Shown here piece by piece: positions 1-8,232 of a DNA stretch of 8,232 bases (the first letter of the stretch is position 1; the number at the start of each line of letters is the position of its first letter). Location: the NCBI GenBank assembly GCA_015493625.1, contig WGCT01000178.1, positions 1 through 8,232 of the forward strand. Direction: 5' to 3'. Origin of the DNA: Draconibacterium sp. (GTDB taxonomy: Bacteria; Bacteroidota; Bacteroidia; Bacteroidales; Prolixibacteraceae). The translations under genes were made by a program, and so were the position numbers. Below the pieces are notes generated by a model. The model searched no databases. It worked only from the letters and a program-made list of their open reading frames with translations, and was not told where the DNA came from.

Positions 1-135
1 CATTTGGGCGAGGGATTAGAGTCGTTTTTTAACTTTTTAAGGAGATTTTATACAGGGAATGGTCAAACTTACGCACTTTATGTAATTGTATTTTTGGTTA
101 TTCTTATACTATTTTCAAAACAGATATTTTTATAA
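1..135 (+). CDS. C-terminal tail of a NuoL/NuoM-type proton/sodium-pumping membrane subunit (partial, 5' end outside window)
   Basis: Reading frame 1 is open from the first base to a TAA at 133-135 and gives 44 residues. They comprise a short amphipathic part with 'FLRRFYTGNGQTYALY' followed by a very hydrophobic segment ending 'LFSKQIFL'. A positively charged stretch, then a 'TGNGQTYALY'-like motif, then one last transmembrane helix is the usual end of antiporter-like subunits of complex I and of group 4 hydrogenase-type complexes (NuoL, NuoM, HyfB, MbhH types). The stop lies 26 nt before the NuoH-type gene, so it belongs to the same operon. These subunits carry the H+ or Na+ translocation. 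Which antiporter paralogue this is, and whether more lie upstream, cannot be decided from 44 residues. Confidence 0.72.
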   Translation, partial: HLGEGLESFFNFLRRFYTGNGQTYALYVIVFLVILILFSKQIFL

Positions 136-161
136 TCTACTGAATATTTATACATCGGAAT

Positions 162-1082
162 ATGAACATTTGGATAACAATATTAGGATTTTTAGCCACC
201 GTATTTCTGGCTTTTGTAGTTGGTGTATTTTATGGTGGTTTTGTTCGTAAAATTACAGCCCGCGTTCAAAACAGAGTTGGGCCACCTGTTTATCAGAATT
301 TTCTTGATATCGTAAAACTGTACAGTAAAAAAACAGCAATTAACCATGGGTGGATGCAGCACCTTGGGCCGGCTTTTGCAATTACAGCATCGGTTACAAG
401 TTTAATGTTTATTCCTATTTTAAATGGTACGGGTTGGTTTCCATGGTTCGAAAACCTCAATTTTAAAGGCGATTTAATTTTTCTTCTTTATATGATGGTG
501 TTTGGCTCTTTGGGAATGGCACTCGGGGCAGGGCAAACTGGTAACCCCAATTCGGCGATTGGCGTTTCGCGTGGATTATCGCAAATGGTAGGGTACGAAA
601 TTCCATGGGTTTTGGCACTTGTGGCATTAATGCTTCAAACCAAAACTACTTCGTTAACAGGGCTGCTCGATTATCAGGTTTCAAACGGAACATGGATGAT
701 GTTTGAATCGCCGTTTGCATTTGTAGCCGCTGTATTAGCCATGCTCGGAATGTTTCATTATGCACCGTTCGATGTGCCTTTTGCGCCTGCAGAACTTTCG
801 TCGGGGCCGGCATCCGAATTTGGCGGTAAATATCTGGCATTAATGATGTCGTCGGGGTCAATATTTTCGTTTGTAAAACTTGTACTCATTGTCGATGTTT
901 TTATGGGAGGAGCTTCAAACCTTATTATGTTGGTTGTTAAAACATTCGCTCTTTATATGATTCCGGTATTGTATGGTATTGTGAGCCCACGATATAGAAC
1001 TGAGCAGTCAATCCGGTATTTTTGGGGATGGCCGACTTTTATTGGAATATTGGGAGTTATTTATGCCGTTTTTGTTCGATAA
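162..1082 (+). CDS. NuoH/HyfC-type membrane anchor subunit of a complex I-like oxidoreductase
   Basis: This 306-residue integral membrane protein has about eight hydrophobic segments, near residues 4-26, 70-88, 103-123, 147-160, 184-200, 226-247, 252-275 and 288-304. The family joins the peripheral redox arm to the antiporter subunits. Diagnostic features are the first-loop motif RVQNRVGP (34-41), the segment RGLSQMVGYE (137-146) with its conserved Glu146, and the loop starting PFDVPFAPAE (202-211) and ending EFGG (219-222). In most homologues this last loop reads PFD-x-PEAE-x-E. Here Phe207 and Pro209 replace the first two glutamates, while Glu211 and Glu219 remain. The length is close to that of HycD/HyfC/MbhM-type proteins. 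The ATG at 162 begins directly before the first membrane helix; no clear Shine-Dalgarno sequence is seen. The next gene starts 18 nt after the stop. Family membership is sure; whether it moves H+ or Na+ is unknown. Confidence 0.93.
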   Translation: MNIWITILGFLATVFLAFVVGVFYGGFVRKITARVQNRVGPPVYQNFLDIVKLYSKKTAINHGWMQHLGPAFAITASVTSLMFIPILNGTGWFPWFENLNFKGDLIFLLYMMVFGSLGMALGAGQTGNPNSAIGVSRGLSQMVGYEIPWVLALVALMLQTKTTSLTGLLDYQVSNGTWMMFESPFAFVAAVLAMLGMFHYAPFDVPFAPAELSSGPASEFGGKYLALMMSSGSIFSFVKLVLIVDVFMGGASNLIMLVVKTFALYMIPVLYGIVSPRYRTEQSIRYFWGWPTFIGILGVIYAVFVR

Positions 1083-1100
1083 AAAATAAAATCTGAAAAG

Positions 1101-1646
1101 ATGATAAATGATAAGAATTCAAAAAAAATAGTTGATATTATACAGGACTTTTCCCGTAGGCACTCTCTTTTTGTGCTTGCCTACGGAACAGGTTGTGGAG
1201 CCATTGAAATTCCTCCAACCATGACTTCGCGCTACGATGCGGAACGGTTTGGAATTAGAGGAATGGCCACTCCGCGCCAGGCCGATTTACTACTTATTAC
1301 AGGTTATTTGGCTTCGAAAACATTAAAACGGGTAATTCGTGCTTACGAACAGATGCAAGACCCGAAATATGTAATTGGTTTTGGAAGTTGTACAATTAAT
1401 GGAGGAATGTATTGGGATTCGTACAACACAATTAAAATCTTGTCCGACTATATTCCTGTCGATGTATATATTAACGGTTGTATGCCACGTCCCGAAGCCG
1501 TTATCACCGGTTTTATAGAGTTGCAAAACCTTATTAAAGAGGGGAAAGCAAATGGCGCTCAGAAATATAAAGAAAACCTTGAGTGGTATCGCGAAAACCA
1601 GAAAAAAGTTATTAAAGACTGGAAAATGCCCGACTATAATTGGTAG
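1101..1646 (+). CDS. NuoB/MbsJ-type iron-sulfur subunit with a three-cysteine proximal cluster site
   Basis: This 181-residue soluble subunit belongs to the NuoB / [NiFe]-hydrogenase small-subunit family, which holds the proximal [4Fe-4S] cluster (N2 in complex I) beside the large-subunit active site. Family landmarks are 'SRYDAERFGIRGMATPRQAD' (43-62), 'GFGSC' (93-97) and 'PVDVYINGCMPRPEA' (119-133). Complex I has tandem cysteines in the first motif (CCAxE); here it reads Gly-Cys-Gly-Ala-Ile-Glu (31-36). Cys32 is therefore present but its partner is Gly33. The whole protein has only three cysteines: 32, 97 and 127. A three-cysteine cluster with one open iron site is what I recall for the archaeal sulfur reductase MbsJ. 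The C-terminal tail (about 145-181) is charged and ends 'DYNW'. Start ATG 1101 gives a normal N-terminus. The family call is firm; the Mbs-type assignment rests on the cysteine pattern. Confidence 0.92.
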   Translation: MINDKNSKKIVDIIQDFSRRHSLFVLAYGTGCGAIEIPPTMTSRYDAERFGIRGMATPRQADLLLITGYLASKTLKRVIRAYEQMQDPKYVIGFGSCTINGGMYWDSYNTIKILSDYIPVDVYINGCMPRPEAVITGFIELQNLIKEGKANGAQKYKENLEWYRENQKKVIKDWKMPDYNW

Positions 1647-1676
1647 TAGTTTTAACGAATAATAAATTATTGAAAA

Positions 1677-2258
1677 ATGACTGATACAATTTTAGATAAA
1701 GAACAAAAGTTGGTTCAACTACTGGAGCAGACATTTAAAAAGCTTTCGGGTAAAGTTGTACGCCAACGCCGGGTAACCGTTTCTGTAGAAAAAGAGTTGG
1801 TTCCTTCGGTGTTGTCGTATGCAAAATCGCAACTCGGATACATTCATCTTTCACATATGTCATGTGTCGACTGGCCGGAGAATAATAACTTCGAAATTAT
1901 TTATATTTTATGGTCGCCCGCCGATAAAGTTCAGTTGTTTATAAAAACATTAATTAACCGCGAAAATCCGGAAATTGATAATGTTGACATGATTTGGAAG
2001 CATGCTAACACTTACGAACGCGAGATTCGCGAAATGTATGGCATTCAGTTTAACGGACTGGTGGGAGCACAAGAGTTTATTTTAGAAGATTGGGACGATA
2101 TGCCACCTATGCGCCGCGATTTTGACACGGTTGAATATGTCGACGATAATTATACATTCAGACCCGGACGCGAAGATGCCGGAGATGTTAGAGAAGAGAT
2201 TGTAAAACGGAGCGGTGAAGATATTCCCGACTTTGCAAAAAAATATTCGAGAGATTAA
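1677..2258 (+). CDS. NuoC-type (30 kDa) subunit
   Basis: This 193-residue cytoplasmic subunit is of the NuoC / HycE-N-terminal type. It binds the NuoB- and NuoD-type subunits structurally and carries no cofactor. The family signature is clear at about 113-149: 'YEREIREMYGIQFNG' followed by 'FILEDWDDMPPMRRDF', matching the ExEIxDMFGIxFxGH...LPEDWxGxPLRKD pattern. The usual His-Pro after the glycine is Leu-Val here, as in many hydrogenase-type relatives. The N-terminal 40 residues are charged and variable. The C-terminal tail after 150 is acidic and extends beyond the signature by about 40 residues. NuoC and NuoD are separate genes here rather than fused as in HycE. The ATG at 1677 lies 30 nt after the previous stop; a 47-nt gap follows before the NuoD-type gene. 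Confidence 0.92.
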   Translation: MTDTILDKEQKLVQLLEQTFKKLSGKVVRQRRVTVSVEKELVPSVLSYAKSQLGYIHLSHMSCVDWPENNNFEIIYILWSPADKVQLFIKTLINRENPEIDNVDMIWKHANTYEREIREMYGIQFNGLVGAQEFILEDWDDMPPMRRDFDTVEYVDDNYTFRPGREDAGDVREEIVKRSGEDIPDFAKKYSRD

Positions 2259-2305
2259 AAGAGCTGAAAGCCGGTAGAGCAAAGTTCCTATTAAATTTTC
2301 AAAAA

Positions 2306-3409
2306 ATGAGAGAAAAAGCGACAACATTATATTTAGGACCACAACATCCGGGAATTACCGGAAATATGATGATAAAACTCAAAGTGGAGGGCGATACAGT
2401 TGTAAAGGCCGAAACTCATGTGGGATATTTACATCGTGGTTTCGAAAAACTGATGGAGAGGCGAAACTGGCTGCAAAGTTTTACCATTGTTTGCCGCATT
2501 TGCGTTCCCGAACCCGACCCAAATGAGTTAAACTATTCGCGTGCCGTAGAAGAGATAGAGGGCAGGACAGTACCTGAAAGAGCCGAGTGGATTCGTACAA
2601 TGATGATGGAACTGAGCCGGTTAGCAAGTTACCTGCTTTGGTTTGGCGGGCAAAATGGTTCGTCGGGGTTATACACCATGCCACAGTGGAGTGTGGGCGA
2701 CCGCGACTATATTCTCGATCTTTTTGAAGAACTTACAGGTGGCCGCGTCTATCATATGTATATCTGGCCGGGTGGTGTTCGCCGCGATTTACCCGACGGT
2801 TTTGCCGATAAAGTTTTGCAAACAATGGATTACCTCGAAAAGAGGCTTAAAAAGTACGACGATCTGATGTTCGCAAATACAATTTTTCAAAAACGTGCAC
2901 AGGGAATTGGTTGGATAGACCCGAAGAAAGCAGTGGAATGGGGAGTGGTTGGCCCGCCGTTACGAGCCGCCGGTATTAAATCGGATGTTCGTATCGACGA
3001 CCCGTATCTTATTTACGATAAACTCGATTTTGAAGTTCCTACGCAAACCGGTTCCGATGTTTGGTCGAGAGCACTAATTCGCCGTTTCGAATTCGAACAG
3101 TCTATATCGATGGTTCGCCAGTGCATCGAGAAAATGCCCAAAGGCGAGGTGTACAATAAAATTCCGAACCCGATGAAATGGACAATTCCTGCCGGCGATG
3201 CATATGTAAAAGCAGAATCGGCCAGAGGAGAGTTTGGTTATTACGTAGTTAGCGACGGTAGCGACAAGCCGCGCAGGGTGCATGTAAAAGGACCTGCATA
3301 TGTTCACGGTGTAACGCTTTTAGAGCGTATTCTGGTTGGAGCAAACATTGCCGACGTTTCGTTTATTATGAATAGCCTCGGTACATGCCCTCCTGAAATT
3401 GAAAGATAG
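2306..3409 (+). CDS. NuoD/MbsL-type large subunit, lacking a complete [NiFe] site and the quinone-binding residues
   Basis: This 367-residue protein is homologous to the complex I 49 kDa subunit and to [NiFe]-hydrogenase large subunits. N-terminal landmarks are GPQHPG (11-16) and 'HVGYLHRGFEKLMERRNW' (38-55). At the hydrogenase site ERICGIC the sequence reads Cys63-Arg-Ile-Cys66-Val-Pro-Glu69, so the second metal-binding cysteine is Glu. The C-terminal DPCxxC site reads Gly-Thr-Cys361-Pro-Pro-Glu364, again with Glu in place of the second Cys, and the protein ends three residues later. The complex I quinone ligands, His in HPxxH and Tyr in DRxDY, align with Thr18 and Val67. It is thus neither a normal hydrogenase nor a quinone reductase. 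With the three-cysteine NuoB partner it best matches Mbx/Mbs-type large subunits. It is intact with no frameshift, so the changes look evolved rather than decayed. The ATG at 2306 leaves only seven residues before the conserved block. Confidence 0.9.
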   Translation: MREKATTLYLGPQHPGITGNMMIKLKVEGDTVVKAETHVGYLHRGFEKLMERRNWLQSFTIVCRICVPEPDPNELNYSRAVEEIEGRTVPERAEWIRTMMMELSRLASYLLWFGGQNGSSGLYTMPQWSVGDRDYILDLFEELTGGRVYHMYIWPGGVRRDLPDGFADKVLQTMDYLEKRLKKYDDLMFANTIFQKRAQGIGWIDPKKAVEWGVVGPPLRAAGIKSDVRIDDPYLIYDKLDFEVPTQTGSDVWSRALIRRFEFEQSISMVRQCIEKMPKGEVYNKIPNPMKWTIPAGDAYVKAESARGEFGYYVVSDGSDKPRRVHVKGPAYVHGVTLLERILVGANIADVSFIMNSLGTCPPEIER

Positions 3410-3441
3410 ATAGTTAAAGATAATAAGGAAAAATATACAAC

Positions 3442-5229
3442 ATGGCATTTTTTGATATTAAAGGACTTGTAACTCCTTTCACAGCTCTCACACAGTTAGG
3501 GAAGGCACCGCATACTGTTACATTTCCATACCATAAAAAAGAGACAGCCGAACGTTATCGTGGGTTACACTACAACAATATAGAAGAGTGTATCGGATGT
3601 GGAAACTGTTCAACAATTTGTATGAACGAAGCCATCGATATGATTCATGTTGACGGAGTTGAAGGTGGAAAAGGCGACTCGGGATTGCGTCCGCGTGTCG
3701 ACAATGGTCGCTGTTGCTGGTGTGCTCTCTGCGTTGAAGTTTGCCCAACGGGTTCGTTAAATTTAACCAAAGAGTATATTTATGTTACTCCCGATGCCGA
3801 TGCTTTTTTGTGGACACCCGGAGTTAGCAACCCCGAGGGAAAAGAAATAATATCGTTTAACAGCAGCGTTGAAACTTCGTTGGGTATGTACAACCGTATT
3901 CCAATGCCCGAACTCGAAGGAAAAGAGCGGGTAAAATCGTTTGCCGAAGTTATGTTGTATTATTCCGAAGAAGAGGCACGCGAAGAGGCAACACGCTGTA
4001 TCTCGTGTGGGCTGTGTACCGAAGTTTGTCCGGCTCACATGCACATTCCCGAGTATATTAATGCCATTGCAAAAGGCGACGATAACGAAGCTATTAAAAT
4101 TATTTACGACAACAACCCGCTTGGCGAACTGTGCGGTAAAGTGTGTACTCGCCGTTGCGAAGATGTTTGTGCCATGCAGGTACGCGGCGATGCCGTTGCC
4201 ATTCGTTGGTTAAAAGAGTATGCCGTTGGCCGTGCCGAAACTGCCGATATTATTAAAGAGATTGTGAATCCGGAAATTAAAGAACCGAACGGATTTAAAG
4301 TGGGAATTGTTGGTGCGGGCCCGTCGGGGTTAACGGCCGGATATTATCTGGCACTTAAAGGGTTCGACGTAACCATTTACGAAGCAAATAAATATGCCGG
4401 GGGAATGACCATGTACGGAATTCCAAAATACCGGTTACCCATGGAATCGCTCGATAAACAAATCGATTATATGAAATCGATAGGAGTAAAAATCGAGTTC
4501 AATACAAAGGTTGGAAAAGACATTACATTCGATAAAATTTATAAAAGCCACGATGCCGTATTTGTTGGTGTTGGCTTCCAGGTGCCGTATAAAATGGGAA
4601 TTAAAGGCGAAGAGGCCGTTGGCGCATTCCCGGCAGTGAATATGCTGTTCGATGTAAATAATGGTAAAACACCCGATATCGGCAATAAAGTTGTTGTCAT
4701 TGGTGGAGGAAATGTTGCTATCGACGGAGCACGAGTTTCGCGCCGTTTGGGTGCCGAGGTTACCATTATGTATCGCCGTCGGGTGGTTGATATGCCGGCC
4801 GATTGGGAGGAGATTGAAGGAGCAGAACACGAAGGCGTTGAAATTATGCCGCAAACCATTCCGGTTGAAATTATTACCGACGAGAACAGTAAAGTTAAAG
4901 CAATAAAATATTTGAAAGCCGAAATGGTTGCCGACGACAAAGGCGGCCGTCCACGACCGGTGCCAATAGAAGGAAGCGAAACCATTATGGAAGTTTCGTC
5001 GGTAATTGGTGCAATTGGTCAGGAAGCTGATTATTCATTCTTTACCGAAGAGGCACTAAAAGAGATTGAAATTAACCGCGGACGAATGGTGGTTGACGAG
5101 AATATGATGACAGGAATGAAAGGAGTATTTGCCGGTGGCGATGCAGTAAACCGAACTGCCGATGCAATTTCGGCAATTGCCGACGGCTTTAAAGCTTGTA
5201 AGTCAATTGAGAAAATGCTGGTAAAATAG
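3442..5229 (+). CDS. NuoI-type ferredoxin fused to a GltD/NfnB-type FAD-dependent NAD(P)H oxidoreductase
   Basis: This 595-residue single frame contains two proteins usually encoded apart. Residues 1-115 resemble the NuoI subunit, with CxxCxxCxxxC at Cys50/53/56/60 and Cys91/94/97/101, giving two [4Fe-4S] clusters. Residues from about 155 form a GltD/NfnB-type unit. It has a cysteine-rich N-terminal domain (Cys186/189/192/196 and Cys231/235/239/243, probably two more clusters), an FAD-binding GAGPSG (291-296), a nucleotide-binding GGGNVAIDGAR (421-431), 'YRRRVVDMPADW' (444-455) and a C-terminal FAD motif GVFAGGDA (561-568). The Arg triplet 445-447 is typical of NADP(H)-using relatives; this preference is inferred. 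The joint is near residues 150-155; Met155 (codon at 3904) aligns with where stand-alone NfnB-like proteins begin, so an internal start is conceivable. It ends the operon and probably carries electrons between NAD(P)H and the NuoB-type cluster, replacing NuoEFG. An AAGGA lies 12 nt before the start, a rather long spacing. Confidence 0.93.
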   Translation: MAFFDIKGLVTPFTALTQLGKAPHTVTFPYHKKETAERYRGLHYNNIEECIGCGNCSTICMNEAIDMIHVDGVEGGKGDSGLRPRVDNGRCCWCALCVEVCPTGSLNLTKEYIYVTPDADAFLWTPGVSNPEGKEIISFNSSVETSLGMYNRIPMPELEGKERVKSFAEVMLYYSEEEAREEATRCISCGLCTEVCPAHMHIPEYINAIAKGDDNEAIKIIYDNNPLGELCGKVCTRRCEDVCAMQVRGDAVAIRWLKEYAVGRAETADIIKEIVNPEIKEPNGFKVGIVGAGPSGLTAGYYLALKGFDVTIYEANKYAGGMTMYGIPKYRLPMESLDKQIDYMKSIGVKIEFNTKVGKDITFDKIYKSHDAVFVGVGFQVPYKMGIKGEEAVGAFPAVNMLFDVNNGKTPDIGNKVVVIGGGNVAIDGARVSRRLGAEVTIMYRRRVVDMPADWEEIEGAEHEGVEIMPQTIPVEIITDENSKVKAIKYLKAEMVADDKGGRPRPVPIEGSETIMEVSSVIGAIGQEADYSFFTEEALKEIEINRGRMVVDENMMTGMKGVFAGGDAVNRTADAISAIADGFKACKSIEKMLVK

Positions 5230-5247
5230 CAGTCATCTCTCTTTTAT

Positions 5248-5285
5248 AAAAAATCCTCCGTAGTTTTCTACGGAGGATTTTTTTT
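5248..5285. terminator. Bidirectional intrinsic terminator between convergent transcription units
   Basis: A perfect inverted repeat has a 16-bp stem (5248-5263 pairing with 5268-5283) and a TTTT loop (5264-5267). The GC-richer core is ATCCTCCGTAG. On the + strand it ends in a run of eight T (5278-5285). On the - strand the A-run at 5248-5253 supplies a matching T-run. It lies 18 nt after the stop of the fusion gene and 22 nt beyond the end of the convergent peptidase gene, so it can end transcription from both sides. It also marks the 3' end of the oxidoreductase operon. Confidence 0.92.
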
Positions 5286-5307
5286 GTATGAAAAGTTTCA
5301 AATAAAT

Positions 5308-8103
5308 TTATTCACCAAACTCGTAACCCAATTCTATCCCTTTTTTTGTTGCCGGAACTCCCGATTTCATCCATTTGGGCATTGGTTTATCTTTTAAGTA
5401 GTGGTCGAAAAACTGCGACATTCGAATCTGAAAATCTTTTATGTCGGGAAATTTTGTTGGCCAGTGGCCGGCCTCGTTGTAATTGAGCAGCCATGCTGGT
5501 TTTTGTAGCCGCCTTAATCCTATGAAAAATTCAATTCCCTGATACCACGGTACAGAACCGTCGTCGTCGTTGTGCATAATAAGTATTGGTGTGTTTATTT
5601 TGTCGATTGTAAAGAGCGGCGAATTCTCAATGTAGCGCAATGGCGATTCCCAAATCGATTTCCCAATGCGGCTCTGTGTATGCTCGTACTGAAACGAACG
5701 GCTGAGACCCGAGCCCCATCGAATTCCACCGTATGCGCTAAACATATTAACCACCGGTGCTCCCGATTCGATTGCCGCAAACATATTTGTGCGGGTTGCC
5801 AGATAAGCAACCTGATATCCACCCCAACTGTGTCCCTGTGCACCAATGTGGTTTTTGTCAACAAAACCTTTGTCAATCAGTGCGGTAACGCCCGGCATAA
5901 CACAGTTAAAAGCCGACTCGCCGGGGTAGCCCTCTTTGTAATATACATCGGGGTTAAAAACAAGGTAGCCGTGGCTGGTGTAATAGTGATACCCAATTGT
6001 TGAACGGCCAATTTGCGGAAGATGATAACTCAACAGCCCCTGAGAACTTTTTTCATAAAAATTTACAATCATCGGGTATTTTTTCTCGGGGTCGAAATTT
6101 GCCGGTTTGTGCAGAGTTCCTTCCAGCTTTTGTCCGTCGAGCGAGACCCACGAAACCAATTCGGCTGTTCCCCATAAAAAATTGCTTTGTTGCGGAGCGG
6201 CATCACTAATTTGTTGTTCGTTTTTAAAACTTAAATCGGTTGCAAGTAGGTTCGGATAGAGCTCGAAATTTTCTTTTGTAAAAAGTACTATGTCGGCATC
6301 TTTGGCTTTCCGTAGCGAGCTGAGTTTATAGTTTCCCGAATAAATATCTTCCGGTTTTGTATCCCCTTCAATAGTAAAACTATAGTAATGATCGGCGCGT
6401 GTAATTTCGTTGTGTCCTTTTAAAAATACTGTTTTAGCAGGGTTAATTCCTTCTTCGTTTTTTAGTTCCTGATTTGTAGTTTTTGGAAAATTAATCAGGC
6501 GGTACGAGATGCTGTTTGCTCTGCCATTTTTGGTAATATTTACCGGTTCTGTTTTGTTTTCAGGATTGATTTTCCAAATATCGAAACGGTCGTAAATTAA
6601 AAGTGCTGCATCGTTTTTTAACCATCCTGCAATTCCGTACGAGCCAGGCAGATTGGGAATATCGTTTAATTCATTAGCAACCTGCACAACAGCAGGCGAT
6701 GTAATTTTAAATTCTTTTCCGGCTTCAACAGAATAGGTATTCCATGTTGTGTCGATGGCATTGTACCAGTATAAATAATTTCCGTTGGTCGACACTCGCG
6801 GTGTGGCACGACAATCGGTTTTTATCTGTTTGGCCTTGCCACTGTTAATATCAACCAAATAAAAGTCGTTATGGCATGGACTACCCTCCCACATTGCCTG
6901 AATTGCATACGGCCTGTTCGACCAGGCCAAAAGTTTGTCGCAGTTGCCTTTTTTTATTTTTTTTATTCCGCTAAACTGTTCGGTTTCGAGCTGTACCATT
7001 TTTTTGCTGTCGAGATGAACAACGGCAAGATACGATCTTTTTAAATCGCTTTTTACCCTTTTTACCTGAACGGTGTGCAGTGTCTCTTCATTCCATGTCC
7101 ATACATCAACTTTGGGCTGTTCCTCATCTAAAATAGTGGTGTCTTTTTGCTCTTTTACAGGAGCTGTCCCCAAAAACAGACGTTCACTATTTTCCGAAAA
7201 CGAGAGTGTGCCATTCTCGCTAATCTCCCAATTATCAGGCAGTGCATCGTTTTTATTGTTGGCAATTGCTGTTGCATTTCCATTGCCATTCCAAAAATAT
7301 AATGTGTAATCGGCAGGTTTCTTTTTAACGAACGAAGTGTCGGCAAGAAAGGCAATTTTATCGCCGGTTTTATTTATTGTCAGATTTTTAAACTTTCCTT
7401 TTCCCGAAAGAATTTTTATAGTATTGTTTTCAGCCAAATTATAAACATAAACTCCGGCATCAAACGTGCTGTCTTTCCCCTCCGAGATGTAGGTAAGAAC
7501 TTTGCTCTTCGCGGCAAAAACATAGCTGCTAACGGCAGGTATTTCTGTAATATTAGCACTGTTCAGGTTTTTAATAAATAGTGGATAAACGTGCTCCGAA
7601 TTAGATTTTTTCTCTTTTCCTTTTTTTGTTGAATCTTGCGGTGTGTCGGTTTGCCAGGCAATCCAACCGGCCCATTTGTCAGGTATTTCCGAAGTCTTTA
7701 TTGCATTTATTGTATCGGCTTCTGCACGCTCCGGGTTGTAAATTACCAACTTGTCTTTTGGCATTTTTTCTTTTTTTGTCTTTTTGAGTTTTAACTCTCG
7801 AACCGTCTCTTTAAGCGGTTTTAATGTGAAAATTACAAATTTTGAATCGGCAGTTATTTTGGCATTTGTACCACCGGTGACCGAGGTTTTTTCGTTTCCG
7901 TCGGGTGTAGTTATTTTTAAAACCGGGTCGCCTTTTTGGGGTTGCAGTTTATACACAATAAAAGCTCCGTTATTCGAAATGTGTGTTTCGGTAATGCGGT
8001 TCCAGTTTTGAACATCGTCGAATGTTAGCGGGCGTTTTTTTGGTTGTGCAGTTGCTAAAAGCCCCAGACTTAGAAGAGTAAAAAGAGTGAATATTTTTTT
8101 CAT
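5308..8103 (-). CDS. Secreted S9-family (prolyl oligopeptidase/DPP-like) serine peptidase
   Basis: This 931-residue exported peptidase has a Sec signal peptide at residues 1-20: Lys-Lys, a hydrophobic core, then 'LLATAQ', with cleavage likely near 19-20. Residues 25 to about 640 should form the beta-propeller typical of S9, judged from repeated strand-like segments and position rather than clear motifs. Two Lys-rich stretches (about 98-120 and 154-168) interrupt it. The C-terminal alpha/beta-hydrolase domain (about 645-905) has the nucleophile motif Gly-His-Ser759-Trp-Gly-Gly, acid Asp848 in 'HNDDDGSVP' (844-852) and His880 in 'NEAGHW' (876-881), so the triad is complete. The usual YGGP-like oxyanion region reads Tyr683-Glu-Lys-Ser. 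It probably cleaves oligopeptides in the periplasm or at the cell surface; the exact specificity (DPP, acylaminoacyl- or prolyl-type) is not readable. It is transcribed alone, convergent to the operon, and has no evident link to it. The ATG at 8103 is fixed by the signal peptide. Confidence 0.93.
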   Translation of the reverse strand: MKKIFTLFTLLSLGLLATAQPKKRPLTFDDVQNWNRITETHISNNGAFIVYKLQPQKGDPVLKITTPDGNEKTSVTGGTNAKITADSKFVIFTLKPLKETVRELKLKKTKKEKMPKDKLVIYNPERAEADTINAIKTSEIPDKWAGWIAWQTDTPQDSTKKGKEKKSNSEHVYPLFIKNLNSANITEIPAVSSYVFAAKSKVLTYISEGKDSTFDAGVYVYNLAENNTIKILSGKGKFKNLTINKTGDKIAFLADTSFVKKKPADYTLYFWNGNGNATAIANNKNDALPDNWEISENGTLSFSENSERLFLGTAPVKEQKDTTILDEEQPKVDVWTWNEETLHTVQVKRVKSDLKRSYLAVVHLDSKKMVQLETEQFSGIKKIKKGNCDKLLAWSNRPYAIQAMWEGSPCHNDFYLVDINSGKAKQIKTDCRATPRVSTNGNYLYWYNAIDTTWNTYSVEAGKEFKITSPAVVQVANELNDIPNLPGSYGIAGWLKNDAALLIYDRFDIWKINPENKTEPVNITKNGRANSISYRLINFPKTTNQELKNEEGINPAKTVFLKGHNEITRADHYYSFTIEGDTKPEDIYSGNYKLSSLRKAKDADIVLFTKENFELYPNLLATDLSFKNEQQISDAAPQQSNFLWGTAELVSWVSLDGQKLEGTLHKPANFDPEKKYPMIVNFYEKSSQGLLSYHLPQIGRSTIGYHYYTSHGYLVFNPDVYYKEGYPGESAFNCVMPGVTALIDKGFVDKNHIGAQGHSWGGYQVAYLATRTNMFAAIESGAPVVNMFSAYGGIRWGSGLSRSFQYEHTQSRIGKSIWESPLRYIENSPLFTIDKINTPILIMHNDDDGSVPWYQGIEFFIGLRRLQKPAWLLNYNEAGHWPTKFPDIKDFQIRMSQFFDHYLKDKPMPKWMKSGVPATKKGIELGYEFGE

Positions 8104-8232
8104 GTGTTAAAAATTTAGAATTAAGATACAAGAATCAAGACACAAGACAGGAAAAACTAGTGCTTTAACTTAATCATGTTTCTGTGTGTGAAATCTTTTG
8201 TCATACTCGTTTCATTTTAAAATATTTAAAAC
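8104..8232. other. Upstream region of the S9 peptidase gene
   Basis: This AT-rich stretch precedes the peptidase start on the - strand and has no plausible gene in either direction. Read toward the peptidase, a weak match to the Bacteroidota promoter form (TTG, 18 bp, TAAATTTT) lies at 8110-8138. Its last base departs from the TAnnTTTG consensus, and the -7 box would sit only six bases before the ATG, so I do not call it a promoter. No Shine-Dalgarno sequence is seen, which is normal for the phylum. Confidence 0.5.
8123..8150. repeat. Short imperfect tandem repeat (two 14-bp units)
   Basis: Two adjacent units, AAGATACAAGAATC (8123-8136) and AAGACACAAGACAG (8137-8150), agree at 11 of 14 positions. 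The shared core is AAGAnACAAGA. The repeat lies 20-47 nt upstream of the peptidase ATG. Low-complexity A/C/G-rich strings like this are frequent between genes in Bacteroidota genomes. It could be a regulatory site or simple-sequence drift; nothing further supports a function. Confidence 0.4.

Follow-up and report, generated by a model that had tools for sequence, protein, structure and literature searches.

A NuoI-type ferredoxin fused to an NfnL/GltD-type flavoprotein in Draconibacterium sp.: a candidate NAD(P)H entry module for a probable MBS-type sulfane-sulfur reductase

The membrane-bound sulfane-sulfur reductase (MBS, or Mbx; structure 6u8y) of Pyrococcus furiosus is viewed as an evolutionary intermediate between hydrogenases and complex I. 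Just three Cys of MbsJ ligate its proximal cluster, the open iron of which reduces an S–S bond; the complex is without His38 and Tyr87 of complex I and retains two of the four [NiFe] Cys (PMC7684303; here and below, papers cited by PMC number are quoted from the parts of their texts available to us). Its MbsN, of 208 residues, is a chain of its own and receives electrons from ferredoxin. A bacterial homologue, the 13-subunit MBX of Thermotoga maritima, is upregulated with sulfur and has been depicted with ferredoxin as its driving donor; the available text names no NAD(P)H module (PMC9431562). Here we describe a locus of Draconibacterium sp. (contig WGCT01000178.1 of assembly GCA_015493625.1, positions 1 to 8,232; this whole stretch of 8,232 nucleotides is referred to as the window) in which the MbsN homologue, encoded at 3442–5229, is extended at its C terminus by an NfnL-type FAD/NAD(P)H module. 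This fusion of a NuoI-type ferredoxin with an NfnL/GltD-type flavoprotein is genuine and strongly conserved. From the sequence signatures of its neighbors we consider the chances slightly better than even that the complex is an NAD(P)H-driven, ion-pumping sulfane-sulfur reductase of the MBS type, likely fed with NADPH via the fused FAD.

Positions 3442–5229 form a single open reading frame (ORF) of 595 amino acid residues, which starts with ATG and contains no internal stop. Residues ~8–120 match NuoI/MbsN (6u8y_N, E 7.7e-21), residues ~150–594 match NfnL/GltD (5jca_L, E 1.5e-94; PF14691, PF07992), and the NCBIfam model NF010590/PRK13984 covers residues 6–594 (E 1.1e-183). This domain search, which had been proposed in the first-pass annotation of the DNA, bears out the view taken there of one frame joining a NuoI-type ferredoxin to a GltD/NfnB-type flavoprotein. 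At 612 bits the protein lies below the curated equivalog cut-off of 946 for PRK13984; it represents a diverged class with a different nucleotide-site motif, and the name of the model, “putative oxidoreductase,” carries no specific function. The C-terminal part resembles NfnL (5jca) in its fold, its FAD and NAD(P) domains and its two [4Fe-4S] sites, with 41% identity across the aligned part. NfnL was also the closest fold among the matches listed in a fold search that mainly covered residues 146–595; NuoI folds were absent among the 50 matches listed.

Relatives were collected by a search of a genome collection, which confirmed 155, the best 80 of which underlie the locus counts given here, and by protein searches, from which the best 120 of 1904 matches and the best 120 of 4004 matches were used. 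The fusions fall into two classes, type I (to which that of the window belongs) and type II. Carriers of type II include Prolixibacter bellariivorans and Tenuifilum. When 77 type I fusions, each of at least 580 residues, were aligned, the window protein was found to share 17 of its 18 Cys with all of them (C50/53/56/60, C91/92/94/97/101, C186/189/192/196, and C231/235/239/243), C586 being the one that varies. Type II fusions (119 sequences) likewise have Cys at these 17 positions, save for one Arg at 196. The four [4Fe-4S] groups recognized at first pass are as described there, with the addition of C92. This residue lies next to a cluster motif of the NuoI part and is invariant in 77/77 type I and 119/119 type II fusions; four clusters require just 16 Cys.

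One fusion frame of at least 580 residues is present in 77 of the 80 loci, a few of them clipped by contig ends. The remaining three are L016 (545 residues) and L083 (561 residues), both at contig ends, and L084, in which the frame is broken into two ORFs (67 and 530 residues). It had been suggested that the fusion would fall if the halves were made separately, from the start at 3442 and an internal ATG at 3904. Two separate genes were ruled out by the single long frame in these 77 loci, and no stop closes off a separate NuoI half. The internal ATG (3904–3906; M155, at the domain junction) corresponds to Met in 76/77 relatives and may act as an extra start, yielding a free flavoprotein.

A NuoD-type ORF is found upstream of the fusion in 76/80 loci, and in each of the other four (L016, L029, L073, and L074) the sequence ends no more than 555 bases before the fusion. 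Gene order was scored with 20 reference proteins, MrpF and MbhD being left out. NuoH-B-C-D are the last four reference-matching plus-strand genes before the fusion in all 62 loci whose upstream sequence reaches 3.4 kb or more, and the order MrpE-MrpG-MrpB/MbhE-MrpC-MrpD-NuoL-NuoH-B-C-D is kept in all 45 loci with at least 9.3 kb. The fusion thus stands beside NuoBCDH-type genes across genomes, a check that the first-pass annotation had called for. Its idea that an NAD(P)H-type module is attached to the subunit by which electrons enter the pump is likewise supported. With a stricter gap limit (NuoD within ~340 bases of the fusion) 67 of the 76 loci remain. The gap exceeds 300 bases in eight of the 76; seven of these contain an ORF of 126–294 residues and the eighth (L080) contains ORFs of 68–100 residues. 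The extra ORF before the fusion in L050 (9482–9913) belongs to the 23S rRNA-intervening-sequence family (PF05635, checked in this locus). Relatives of it occur in L022, L028, L029, L030, L031, and L069, between NuoD and the fusion wherever NuoD is visible, and L021 has in its place a different ORF, of 294 residues.

In the window NuoH, NuoB, NuoC, and NuoD precede the fusion gene, all on the same strand, and the fusion forms the 3′ end of the operon:

1..135, plus strand: 3′ end (44 codons) of an MbsH′-type antiporter-like subunit, truncated by the window edge, with its stop at 135
162..1082, plus strand: NuoH/MbsM-type membrane anchor (PF00146, E 1.2e-52; 6u8y_M 152.8 bits, runner-up membrane-bound hydrogenase [MBH] 76.7)
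1101..1646, plus strand: NuoB/MbsJ-type subunit with three Cys only and a predicted site-differentiated catalytic [4Fe-4S] cluster (6u8y_J 219.5 bits, runner-up 126.1)
1677..2258, plus strand: NuoC/MbsK-type subunit (PF00329; 6u8y_K top at 55.2 bits, runner-up 49.4)
2306..3409, plus strand: NuoD/MbsL-type subunit (6u8y_L 382 bits, complex I 253, MBH 144)
3442..5229, plus strand: fusion of an MbsN/NuoI-type two-cluster ferredoxin with an NfnL/GltD-type FAD/NAD(P)H module bearing two further [4Fe-4S] sites
5308..8103, minus strand: S9-family (prolyl oligopeptidase) peptidase of 931 residues, convergent and probably unrelated to the operon

The fragment at 1..135 gave no Pfam matches; its C-terminal end resembles that of the L012 MbsH′, a protein that can be aligned with 6u8y_X. 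A scan of 5150–5400 for terminators and promoters detected none.

The closest solved relative of NuoB, NuoC, NuoD, NuoH, and the NuoI half is P. furiosus MBS, as it is for MbsH and MbsH′ of L012. In the relative L018, the fusion of which is 71% identical to that of the window, a gene-by-gene count found all 13 MBS-type subunits, MrpF and MbhD among them; the set comprises a pair of MbsH-type proteins and a Na+ module of the Mrp type. The window contig begins inside MbsH′. C32, C97, and C127 of NuoB are present in 67/67 relatives; 64 of these proteins have three Cys in total, two have five and one has four. The tandem Cys of complex I is found in none of the 67, and the position of MbsJ C25 is occupied by Gly. 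NuoD has Thr/Val at the quinone-site His38/Tyr87 positions in 71/71 sequences. Its [NiFe]-ligand positions, assigned by motif, hold Cys at C63, C66, and C361 and Glu at the fourth (364), again in 71/71, so that unlike its P. furiosus counterpart it has one extra Cys (C63). We did not find hypD in the genome of the window (94% complete). The three-Cys NuoB, the lack of the quinone-site His/Tyr, the Glu at the fourth [NiFe] position and the lack of hypD together make the catalytic end MBS-like rather than like complex I or MBH, and these sequence features indicate that the host complex is of the MBS/MBX type. The operon had been taken at first pass as complex I-like, a label which should be replaced, while the absence of NuoEFG-type genes noted there holds for the window and extends to the operon of L018. 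A search for NuoF in the genome of the window gave a best match below the cut-off, inside a gene cluster (G000:C247:299-4507, L010) that reads, from its ORFs and with no family scan, as an electron-bifurcating HydABC-type [FeFe] hydrogenase; a second match lies on C489.

The two classes of fusion differ at the nucleotide site. An Arg-Arg pair (Arg445/Arg446 in the window protein) follows the second β-strand of the NAD(P) domain in 77/77 type I fusions and in 3/3 nearby NfnL-like proteins, and in none of the 119 type II fusions, which have Leu-Glu in its place; a further count gave the pair in 119/119 fusions of type I and 0/116 of type II. Such a pair would bind the 2′-phosphate of NADPH, and type I is predicted to be NADPH-like and type II NADH-like. 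The genome of the window holds both classes. Its type II copy (G000:C186:2339-4131, minus strand; L008) is interrupted by a frameshift close to where the two halves join, with overlapping ORFs of 254 and 400 residues, and its relatives are unbroken; an error in sequencing or assembly could account for the break, as could decay or a frameshift site. In a tree of the flavoprotein half, from which four of the 23 chosen fusion rows were left out (I_L062, II_P0168, II_P0205, and II_P0239), types I and II group together. They may share a single fusion origin, the support for this grouping being only 86/87. In both classes Lys258 (77/77 and 119/119) occupies the position of P. furiosus NfnL Glu126, which we take to be a cluster ligand, and this sets the fusions apart from the three nearby NfnL-like proteins and from 5jca. 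A gain of Cys231 was rejected as a mark of the fusion, since the same three proteins carry it. The window contains no NfnS gene, which argues against bifurcation; an NfnS-like gene adjoins the fusion in 3/80 loci, the search for NfnS having been confined to these loci and the window.

The architecture and catalytic-site type of an NAD(P)H-driven sulfane-sulfur reductase are well supported by the invariant cluster Cys, the MBS-type signature and the constant gene order; its activity, direction, acceptor, pumping, and ion are predicted. NADPH would reduce the fused FAD, from which electrons would pass first to the cluster pair of the NfnL-like part, then to that of the NuoI-like part, and on to a fifth, the three-Cys cluster of NuoB. 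By analogy with the known MBS and NfnL layouts, these clusters would be placed in one chain. The NuoB cluster would cleave the S–S bond of polysulfide or of other sulfane sulfur. Ion movement would be the task of the NuoD/NuoH coupling loops together with both MbsH-type subunits. The fused flavoprotein would act in place of, or in addition to, the ferredoxin that feeds the archaeal enzyme.

The pump-axis residues named for MbsH and MbsH′, together with five acidic residues of MbsM (PMC7684303), allow a residue-by-residue comparison, according to which the coupling machinery resembles that of MBS in most respects but not in all. Eight of the ten named antiporter residues are identical in L012, namely MbsH E138, E219, K250, and K393 and MbsH′ E128, K217, K248, and K399. 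Full conservation of the pump axis was ruled out, as L012 has Leu in place of each named His (MbsH H330 and MbsH′ H336), a shared His lying four positions further along. This replacement is one of several points that weigh against an NAD(P)H-driven pump. Of the acidic MbsM residues the window retains D196, E203, and E211 (3/5), E104 being replaced by Val and E193 by Ala. In the AlphaFold2 model of the fusion the first ~130 residues mostly have a pLDDT below 70, leaving the NuoI half and the linker at low confidence. Besides the operon itself only one gene, resembling dihydroorotate dehydrogenase (DHOD), occurs in more than 7/80 loci, and no sulfur gene was seen among the annotated recurrent clusters, most clusters of two to four loci being unannotated. 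The potential of NADPH is about −320 mV and that of polysulfide about −260 mV; the driving force is smaller than with ferredoxin, and pumping would be modest. Ferredoxin is the donor of P. furiosus MBS, and the complex, as Mbx, was earlier called a ferredoxin:NADP+ oxidoreductase (PMC6349859).

This last activity suggests a different use of the module, in which reduced ferredoxin docks and its electrons split, some passing via the pump to sulfur and others to FAD for the production of NADPH, the flavoprotein serving as an output besides the input. The enzyme of which NfnL, the closest fold, is a part exchanges electrons with ferredoxin, and genes like NfnS, NfnL, and DHOD follow the fusion in L074, L077, and L082. 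We regard such a branch as rather unlikely: judging from the MBS layout, flow from ferredoxin to FAD would miss the NuoB/NuoD/NuoH coupling site and bypass the pump, and the position of NfnL Glu126 is Lys in every fusion. Reverse or bidirectional operation, with the ion gradient pushing electrons from sulfide or polysulfide to NADP+, is improbable. The NADPH and polysulfide couples are close, so the reaction may be reversible, and the database labels of six of the 80 loci (SulCav, HyVt, and Guay, as interpreted here) suggest sulfidic-cave or vent samples; against this, no sulfide-oxidation gene was seen among the recurrent neighbor clusters so far as these are annotated, and MBS has been described as a reductase (PMC7684303).

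The remaining alternatives concern the acceptor. A variant of complex I, an NAD(P)H:quinone oxidoreductase with the fusion in place of NuoEFG, would account for the homology of NuoB, C, D, H, and I and for the general plan; NuoD scores above the PRK06075 NuoD equivalog cut-off (437 vs 360 bits), and NuoB passes the cut-offs of two NuoB subfamily models. The tested subunits are nevertheless nearer to MBS than to complex I, and a complex I working with quinone was rejected on the missing His38/Tyr87 (71/71) and tandem Cys (67/67), which leaves this variant with little likelihood. A hydrogenase-like activity of NuoD is extremely unlikely. Three of its four [NiFe]-ligand positions are Cys, but the invariant Glu at the fourth and the failure to find hypD led us to discard a [NiFe] hydrogenase. 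Over these alternatives we retain the NAD(P)H-driven reductase.

The fusion is not new as a protein model. Among 14 control genomes T. maritima alone matches PRK13984, and it does so above the curated cut-off, from which it follows that the fused architecture is already in databases under the name “putative oxidoreductase.” A statement in the first-pass annotation, of a separate GltD-like gene beside Mbx-like loci in Thermotogae, fits poorly with this match, as the model spans the entire fusion. The main text of PMC9431562 does not contain the terms GltD, NfnB, glutamate synthase, or fusion. NfnAB and three fused Nfn patterns have been described, the NuoI-type fusion being unmentioned in the part available (PMC6405883), and no account of it was found in the accessible parts of PMC6349859, PMC6085437, PMC10451490, and PMC2246101. 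In a survey of titles and the starts of abstracts, in which subscription journals are thinly covered, an NAD(P)H module on MBS/MBX was not found, though one may well be in print. Within the literature searched, the NAD(P)H-driven reading with two nucleotide classes was not found stated.

It is possible, if somewhat short of an even chance, that some Bacteroidota have paired ion-pumping sulfane-sulfur reductases, one using NADPH (type I) and the other NADH (type II), without ferredoxin, and that bacterial MBX, including that of T. maritima, is NAD(P)H-driven rather than ferredoxin-driven. Sulfur respiration would then draw directly on either pyridine nucleotide pool, with the donor predicted from two residues in a family spread patchily over Bacteroidota, Thermotoga, and Ignavibacteria-type lineages. 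Covalent attachment of an NAD(P)H module to the entry subunit of MBS would represent an independent solution to the role of NuoEFG in complex I, and the fusion calls into question the ferredoxin supply so far assumed for bacterial MBX.

Matches to PRK13984 at E ≤1e-100 were found in 10/61 genomes (own included) and, within the same genus, in 7/37; at E ≤1e-150 a phylum-wide draw gave 2/296 (own included). On these counts the fusion is accessory and patchy. By their database labels the 80 loci come from Bacteroidales, Marinilabiliaceae, Saprospiraceae, Flavobacteriaceae, Melioribacteraceae, Ignavibacteriales, and others, with one Caldithrix-labelled and one Neomarinimicrobiota-labelled bin; labels of bins may be wrong.

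The DHOD-like gene (NF005741) lies near the operon upstream in 22/80 loci and downstream in 13/80, many loci being too short. By gene clustering it is present in 33 loci, at the operon start or just past its end (e.g., L017, L018, L027, L042, L044, L075, and L086). In the genome of the window one such gene (L008:1337-2323) follows the type II cluster on C186, and another lies on C77. The run of NfnS-like, NfnL-like, and DHOD-like genes after the fusion in L074, L077, and L082 (11817–15160 in L082, where the NfnS-like gene was Pfam-checked) is found in Flavobacteriaceae; these neighbors hint at a wider flavoprotein set, with no mechanism shown. Genes for a proton-translocating transhydrogenase (two pntA parts and pntB; L018:12031-14962) stand directly after the fusion in L018. 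PntAB was ruled out as a standing partner, as it adjoins the operon in this one of the 80 loci, and the genome of the window has pntB on another contig. A rubrerythrin-family gene is found directly behind the fusion in L088 (11840–12307, checked), L089, and L062.
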